Shown: piece by piece, positions 14,469 to 48,677 of the stretch
Position numbering within the stretch: the stretch's first letter is position 1
Layout: each line of letters begins with the position of its first letter
Position numbers and translations under genes: made by a program
The notes under the pieces: generated by a model
What the model saw: only the letters and a program-made list of their open reading frames with translations
Told to the model about the DNA's origin: nothing
Databases searched by the model: none
Assembly: GCA_024643755.1 (NCBI GenBank)
Contig: JAHEMG010000005.1
Location: 1-52,851 of the forward strand
Direction of reading: 5' to 3'
Source: Flavobacteriales bacterium
GTDB taxonomy: Bacteria > Bacteroidota > Bacteroidia > NS11-12g > UBA955
DNA: 52,851 nucleotides

Positions 14469-15284
14469 ATGGAATTAAGAAAAAATATCTCGCAAGGGTC
14501 GTTTTGGTTCGCCATCACGACCCTTGTTGTTTTTAGCATCGCCAGGTGTCATCGATTGGCATCGAACGACAGGCAATTGGCGGCATCGGTGTGGAGCGAC
14601 AGTGCGATGCAGTTGGACATGAACAACTACCAAAAGCAAACGCGTTACAATCGAAACAGAAAGCGATTTTACCCCAACAAAGGAAAAGAAGGTTTAGATG
14701 TATCGGGGGCCTATCAGCATTATCATCACCGCACACAAAAAAACCTTTCGCCCAAATTGGCGCTGGAGTTATTGTTGGCATTACGACAGACCAACGGCGC
14801 CAAACAAAGGGGAATGAACGCGGCCGATAGCCTGCGGCTCGGCCGCGAGTTGAGTGTCGGACTGAAACAGTCAAATCCATATGGTTCCAGGCCTCTGGCC
14901 TGGAACCATATGGATAGCACCCAGTGGGACGCCCTACCCGGCATCGGTCCGGCCACCGCCCGCAAAATCATCCGTTACAGAAACAAACTCGGCGGCTTCA
15001 CACATGCACAACAATTACTCGAAATCCCCAAGATCGACACCCTACTTGCTACCCTTCTGGCAGAAACATTCTCCTACTCCCCCGCAGAAATAACAAAACT
15101 CAATCCAAACCCCAACTGGTCAACCCTTTACAAACACCCGTATGTTGGACCCGCCAAAGCCAAAATTCTGCACCCCTTCCTCGCACATCACCAACCCCTA
15201 ACACGCCAAGATTGGAACCAAATCCAAGGACTAAATCGCGAGGAAAAAGAAAAAATCAGCCCCTACCTTTCGTTCACCGACTAA
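14469..15284 (+). CDS. ComEA-like helix-hairpin-helix protein
   Basis: This 271-residue protein has an N-terminal hydrophobic segment (about 11-27, a membrane anchor or signal). A basic, low-complexity stretch follows, then a helix-hairpin-helix DNA-binding motif around 148-180 (DSTQWDALPGIGPATARKI...LGGF) and a second, weaker one (about 220-240, HPYVGPAKAKIL). ComEA-like proteins bind incoming DNA at the membrane during transformation. Bacteroidota encode several such proteins of unproven role. The gene is notable for two strong DNA hairpins at codons 117-127 and 136-149, just before the first HhH motif, and one in its leader. Both inner hairpins are translated in frame. The protein is otherwise poorly conserved and the start (after GGAG) is plausible. 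Confidence 0.8.
   Translation: MELRKNISQGSFWFAITTLVVFSIARCHRLASNDRQLAASVWSDSAMQLDMNNYQKQTRYNRNRKRFYPNKGKEGLDVSGAYQHYHHRTQKNLSPKLALELLLALRQTNGAKQRGMNAADSLRLGRELSVGLKQSNPYGSRPLAWNHMDSTQWDALPGIGPATARKIIRYRNKLGGFTHAQQLLEIPKIDTLLATLLAETFSYSPAEITKLNPNPNWSTLYKHPYVGPAKAKILHPFLAHHQPLTRQDWNQIQGLNREEKEKISPYLSFTD
14819..14847. repeat. Intragenic hairpin 1 in the helix-hairpin-helix gene
   Basis: CGCGGCCGA (14819-14827) pairs exactly with TCGGCCGCG (14839-14847). After a two-base bulge (TA), GCC (14830-14832) pairs with GGC (14836-14838) around the loop TGC. The total is 12 GC-rich base pairs. Confidence 0.9.
14875..14915. repeat. Intragenic hairpin 2: perfect 19-bp inverted repeat, 3-base loop
   Basis: The left arm ATCCATATGGTTCCAGGCC (14875-14893) and its exact reverse complement (14897-14915) flank TCT. 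It lies 27 bases after hairpin 1 and immediately before the codons of the first helix-hairpin-helix motif. It is the longest perfect inverted repeat I saw in the window. No target duplication flanks it. Confidence 0.95.
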
Positions 15285-28170: not shown

Positions 28171-28204
28171 AAATAAAACGGGCGGCCCACTGGGCCGCCC
28201 GTTT
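28171..28204 (-). terminator. Terminator of the tRNA-tuf-rpl-rpoBC operon
   Basis: AAACGGGCGGCCC (28176-28188) pairs perfectly over 13 bp with GGGCCGCCCGTTT (28192-28204) on a three-base loop. On the minus strand the stem runs into TTTTATTT. It lies 23 bases after the rpoC stop and is the strongest terminator here. Confidence 0.95.
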
Positions 28205-48645: not shown

Positions 48646-48677
48646 AAAAAAAGGGGCGTGAATCACGCCCCTTTTTT
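48646..48677. terminator. Bidirectional terminator between gcvT and the DUF6263-like gene
   Basis: AAAAAAGGGGCGTG (48647-48660), AAT, CACGCCCCTTTTTT (48664-48677) form a 14-bp stem with A-runs and T-runs on both strands. It serves gcvT from the left and the minus-strand gene from the right. Confidence 0.95.

Follow-up and report, generated by a model that had tools for sequence, protein, structure and literature searches.

A perfect palindrome that is translated in frame inside a protein-coding gene raises the question of how such a structure arose and what keeps its two arms complementary. The window in which it lies, 52,851 nucleotides in length, spans the whole of contig C187 in a draft genome (G000) of 2.36 Mb and 208 contigs. 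Direct reading of the sequence and a repeat search confirmed that the two 19-nt arms at 14875-14893 and 14897-14915 are exact reverse complements around a TCT loop, as the earlier note on this DNA had described. We refer to this palindrome (ATCCATATGGTTCCAGGCC TCT GGCCTGGAACCATATGGAT, 14875-14915) as H3, and it belongs to the following features:

14469..15284, + strand: ComEA-like gene of 271 aa, with an N-terminal transmembrane stretch, a fast-evolving linker and a helix-hairpin-helix domain (ORF list, Pfam)
14875..14893, + strand: 5' arm of H3, encoding N-P-Y-G-S-R-P (direct reading, repeat search, orthologue codon alignment)
14897..14915, + strand: 3' arm of H3, encoding L-A-W-N-H-M-D, residues that match those of hairpin-free relatives (direct reading, repeat search, codon alignment)
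14910..15041, + strand: HHH_3 domain match, residues 148-191 of the protein (Pfam)

The same note had placed the palindrome in frame within a ComEA-like gene, and this holds: the 271-aa ORF is open from 14469 to 15284, H3 covers its codons 136-149, and the 3' end of H3 overlaps by two codons the start of the HHH_3 match (PF12836; 6e-12, 45.9 bits against a cut-off of 27). A hydrophobic stretch is found at the N-terminus, and “ComEA-like” seems a fair name for this predicted HHH_3 protein. The protein was matched in 15 of the 15 genus genomes (E<=0.001), the match in G001 being only 34 aa long and perhaps not an orthologue. Its gene diverges much more quickly than the genes on either side: over the first 130 residues, identity between G000 and either G002 or G013 is 48%, compared to 95-98% for both neighbours.

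With arms of 19 nt that are 100% complementary and 3 nt apart, H3 is the longest inverted repeat of the window. By shuffling the codons of the ComEA-like gene 2000 times in a way that preserves both the protein and the codon counts of the gene, we obtained a longest perfect arm usually of 6-8 nt and never above 15, which bears out the claim that the palindrome exceeds chance. No other intragenic inverted repeat reaches the length of H3 in some 0.6 Mb of G000 coding sequence, where none is expected at a score of at least 16. The synonymous shuffles and the genome-wide repeat count rule out a chance origin. An intrinsic terminator is ruled out as well, since the stem is followed by AGCACCCAG without a T run and a terminator scan called none there.

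H3 is carried by four of the 15 genus members (G000, G002, G009 and G013), and the letters of its arms differ between them. Facing the G000 arms given above, the arms of G002 are ATCCATACGGTTCCAGGCC/GGCCTGGAACCGTATGGAT and those of G013 are GGAGTCGAGTCGGTTCCAG/CTGGAACCGACTCGACTCC, where H3 also has two more inner pairs and a single A-C mismatch; the size of H3 is 41-47 bp across carriers. First, in the three species with both arms, both sides have changed in 5 of the 19 pairs while 18-19 pairs remain Watson-Crick. Second, 98.5% of the cells of the 4-row alignment are paired, with no G-U pair among 68 cells and the A-C mismatch of G013 as the single departure. Third, when the partner was slid by 1-3 columns as a control, only 16-46% of the cells were paired; double-changed pairs numbered 5 in H3, 1.6 after shuffling and 0-1 after sliding, in a comparison that involves only four sequences. 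The outer stem is covered by three rows only, so that this signal is strong in kind and thin in number. The inner 8 pairs (GGTTCCAG/CTGGAACC) are invariant in the four species, while the outer 8-11 pairs vary freely and stay paired. The earlier note had offered a translational pause or an RNA processing site as its second explanation: a role for RNA or DNA structure gains from a pairing that is conserved where the letters are not, but pausing or RNA processing as such draws no support from it.

The codon alignment across the site indicates how these changes affect the protein:

hairpin-free G006: AAT CCG TTT --- CCC AAA AAA CTC GAT TGG AAC CAG CTC GAT
hairpin clade: AAT CCA TAY GGT TCC AGG CCT YTG GCC TGG AAC CRT ATG GAT
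G013: AGT CGA GTC GGT TCC AGA CCC CTG GCC TGG AAC CGA CTC GAC

The third codon base of one arm pairs with the second base of the other arm, so that compensating changes cost amino acids. The 5' arm of G013 has turned NPY into SRV, where NPF or NPY stands in every other member of the genus whose 5' arm can be read, and in G000 an R has become H within H3. Hairpin-free orthologues are shorter across the site by 3 nt (one codon), not by 41 nt, which indicates that the site was rewritten and not filled. Judged by comparison with the outgroup, the 5' arm appears to have been replaced in the clade, and the residues of the 3' arm appear to be ancestral.

From these observations we infer a template-switch mechanism and its direction, and we see about an even chance that H3 arose in place and that its arms were kept paired mainly by arm-to-arm template switching. 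In an ancestor of the four species, a template switch during replication would have turned the short linker that precedes the HHH domain into the reverse complement of its neighbour, the more constrained coding stretch for W-N-x-L/M-D-S, with the addition of one codon. Further switching from arm to arm (quasipalindrome correction) would then be the main reason why the arms stayed complementary: what changes in one arm is copied to the other or reverted, and selection on the protein decides which copy survives. Selection for an mRNA hairpin may act in addition. H3 is a hairpin formed in place that is kept by arm copying, by selection or by both, and our data do not fully separate the two. We lean to template switching because the H3 stem is strictly Watson-Crick, because departures in the strong repeats of the genus (see below) are as often A-C as G-U (14 and 10) without any RNA-type preference, because changes arrive in blocks and at the expense of amino acids, and because H3 plainly began as a copy of the 3' arm. 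Against it, the invariance of the inner 8 pairs in four species looks more like selection than free conversion, G013 retains its A-C mismatch uncorrected, and loop inversion, a common but not obligatory trace of template switching, is not seen in H3, whose loops (TCT, TTT and CCT) are not mutual reverse complements. Stepwise compensation is compatible with the high divergence of the ComEA-like gene, both arms being complete in three sequences only.

Exonuclease VII limits template switching in E. coli. Its large subunit (TIGR00237, PF02601) was found in 3 of the 15 genus genomes and is present in the hairpin-free sisters G003 and G006; it was not found in G000, G002, G009 and G013, nor in most of the genus. 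Since most genus members without exonuclease VII also lack H3, its absence is a weak correlate of H3 and a correlation only. Loss of SbcCD was also considered as a cause, and the search for it returned partial, sub-threshold matches only. According to work cited in PMC6357072, exonuclease I is an exonuclease shown to limit template switching in E. coli.

The explanation that comes closest is selection for an mRNA hairpin, which we regard as possible, if less than probable: H3 and two further hairpins would act in the transcript, where they might, for instance, be cut by RNase III, hold up decay or, at the passage from the membrane segment to the HHH domain, brake translation, and the paired changes would be classical compensation. 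RNase III-cleaved or structured hairpins occur in bacterial coding sequences, and H3 resembles these as a long duplex of nearly two helical turns in an mRNA. It folds at -35.9 kcal/mol (z = -8.4), and folds of -36 to -42 kcal/mol count in favour of an RNA role. Such a role also fits the covariation and the invariant inner core of H3, as well as the presence of three hairpins in one 0.8-kb mRNA, the other two being:

14493..14526, + strand: H1, second hairpin, covering codons 9-20 with a TTCG loop; across 11 genus genomes its stem letters hardly vary
14819..14847, + strand: H2, third hairpin, in the same clade as H3, outer bases different yet paired in G002 and G013

H1 occurs once per genome and always in the ComEA-like gene (11 genus genomes), has a GG-UUCG-CC tip and folds at -22.7 kcal/mol (z -6.75). 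Silent sites in its arms are identical in 54/60 cases compared to 0.47 for the rest of the gene, and it persists with an inner mismatch that stays uncorrected (T-T or C-T in most species, A-T in G006 and G003), both of which speak for a function of the RNA. As H1 lies in the same gene as H3 and keeps this mismatch in most genomes, conversion is not acting on every hairpin. H1 lies about 55 nt past the stop codon of the upstream aminotransferase gene and T-rich codons come after it, and it may be a terminator of that gene, although the terminator scan did not call it. A hairpin with the stem letters of H1 was also noticed in another genus of the family (G032:C46:37470-37500, AAGGGTCGTTTGAACTTATCAAACGACCCTT).

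Both explanations draw on long intragenic repeats elsewhere in the genus, template switching on their excess and selection at the mRNA level on their conserved silent sites. Against synonymous shuffles, about 0.60 Mb of G000 coding sequence holds 15 inverted repeats of score at least 12 (4.0 expected) and 4 of score at least 14 (0.3 expected). At the score of at least 12, G013 holds 12 (2.3 expected) and a genome from another genus of the family 4 (1.7 expected), while 171 kb of E. coli K-12 coding sequence shows no excess (1 against 1.3 expected). These genus repeats are few in number, a few of them lie near ORF starts and some encode alanine runs. Repeats in the YyaL/DUF255, TonB-receptor, SelD and MetH genes combine conserved silent sites with covariation, and such repeats outnumber those of codon shuffles 3-4-fold. 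Where the YyaL/DUF255 gene of G000 has CAG/CTG, both G009 and G013 have CAA/TTG, and the versions of an adjacent repeat in the three genomes are CAAGCGG/CCGCTTG, CAATCGG/CCGATTG and CAGTCGG/CCGACTG; this gene (L072:7187-7276) thus carries two adjacent inverted repeats with paired, partly synonymous changes in these three genomes. The repeat pairs of MetH change together as well. The 13-bp stem of the TonB-receptor gene of G000 (L070:472-500; TTCCAGGCCAGCC/GGCTGGCCTGGAA) is identical in six species, silent sites included, while its loop base varies freely, and the GC-rich stem of the SelD gene (L076:4318-4348) has conserved silent sites in six genus members.

Over the 232 orthologue pairs of G000 and G013 on which the silent-site test is based, repeats of score at least 10 outside the ComEA-like gene had identical silent sites in 54/67 cases against 0.54 expected (p = 6.5e-6). 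Mirror repeats were our control when counting repeats and when measuring their covariation and silent-site identity: no silent-site effect was found for those of score 8 to 11, and only three reached 12 or more, too few to judge. Several points stand against an mRNA hairpin. H3 is devoid of G-U pairs and the strong repeats show no G-U excess over A-C, the 10 and 14 departures being accompanied by 23 double Watson-Crick changes, all of these being small numbers. Moreover, H3 is missing in 10 relatives that retain the gene, its pairing phase forces amino-acid changes, its outer stem takes extensive letter replacement, and an Rfam search gave no family match near a curated threshold. Outside the long ORFs, the window also contains perfect inverted repeats at 48647-48677 and 28176-28204 (arms of 15 and 14 bp, 1 nt apart, flanked by A/T runs), which are probably bidirectional terminators; longer repeats of this kind (24-26 bp) exist in G013.

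A site acting at the DNA level, either a cruciform or a symmetric protein-binding site, seems improbable to us. It would account for the strict Watson-Crick symmetry and for the invariant core in four species, but a protein site would conserve letters, whereas the outer 8-11 pairs change freely while paired, and the core is found nowhere else in these genomes except in a shorter form in the TonB-receptor gene, whose stem shares TTCCAGGCC/GGCCTGGAA with H3.

Still less credible, and to be given hardly any weight, is the first proposal of the earlier note, namely a Rickettsia-like mobile palindromic element inserted in frame. The palindrome is in frame, and its TTCCAGGCC/GGCCTGGAA core is common to H3 and one other gene, as such an element would have it. 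However, the core GGTTCCAG-n-CTGGAACC was found in one copy each in G000, G002, G009 and G013 and was absent from the other 55 of the 59 family genomes searched, every match sits in an orthologue of the ComEA-like gene, and a search of the 91-bp region around H3 against its own genome matched only itself. Also, no hairpin exists at this place in the 10 genus members with a readable orthologue, and a profile search of contigs with the alignment of the protein added no further hairpin-bearing species. The note itself had named a single copy, together with orthologues that encode this stretch without any palindrome, as evidence against mobility, and both were found. With no target duplication or copy family seen, and a repeat identity that is not decaying, a mobile element is refuted by copy number, by orthologous position and by the near-equal length of hairpin-free alleles, which are only one codon shorter. 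An artefact of assembly or amplification is just as implausible, since, although the G009 contig terminates exactly in the hairpin, inside its 5' arm (L006:1875-1899), H3 is carried by four separate metagenome assemblies in an open frame and as concordant hairpins of differing letters. Assemblers nonetheless seem to struggle at this site, and in the G002 scaffold (L007:2127-2215) a stretch of N follows H3 at a distance of about 110 nt.

Coding palindromes of such a kind are already known from Nematomorpha mitochondria and yeast genes, and what is new in H3 is that pairing is kept by paired substitutions; our search of the open-access literature met no description, in bacteria, of in-frame palindromes that are orthologous and covary. 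H3 offers a clear example from nature of base pairing that has outlasted the nucleotides as well as the amino acids of the bacterial gene that holds it. RNA function is usually taken as proven where bases covary; if template switching alone maintains the arms, covariation in coding regions can mislead, and if selection maintains them, a set of mRNA hairpins in this genus awaits description.

Like the palindromic elements of Rickettsia, which are about 150 bp long, multicopy and absent from empty sites (review PMC10969869) and which lose repeat identity over time (PMC6649704), H3 is an in-frame palindrome translated inside a gene. Unlike these elements or a MITE (about 100-150 bp), it is a single-copy structure of 41-47 bp that involved no insertion and has kept its identity. 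Closer are the products of template switching, which builds a perfect stem at a single stroke and later repairs it in RNA genes (PMC8794818), homogenises arms with amino-acid replacements in yeast genes (PMC8604942) and is measured at quasipalindromes by lacZ reporters in E. coli (PMC7202029, PMC6357072), one quasipalindrome being of 18 bp (PMC6357072), about the size of H3. H3 shares with quasipalindrome products arms that are made or kept perfectly complementary, clustered multi-base changes and amino-acid replacements in coding genes; these products are recent events, however, whereas H3 persists at one place across diverged species with an invariant core. The mitochondrial palindromes of Nematomorpha, for which conversion without function was proposed (PMC6649704), are likewise perfect inverted repeats in functional coding genes with nearly no imperfect state and conversion as the proposed maintenance, but they are very abundant and reach 284 bp, while H3 and its like are bacterial and few, H3 itself being 19 bp long and orthologously conserved with covariation. 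We suggest, tentatively, that unrelated genes of this genus may harbour long in-frame hairpins that form one class. Their arms would be kept complementary actively, across species and at the expense of amino acids, through an unusual replication or repair setting or a shared function at the mRNA level, which would make them a bacterial counterpart of the nematomorph coding palindromes.
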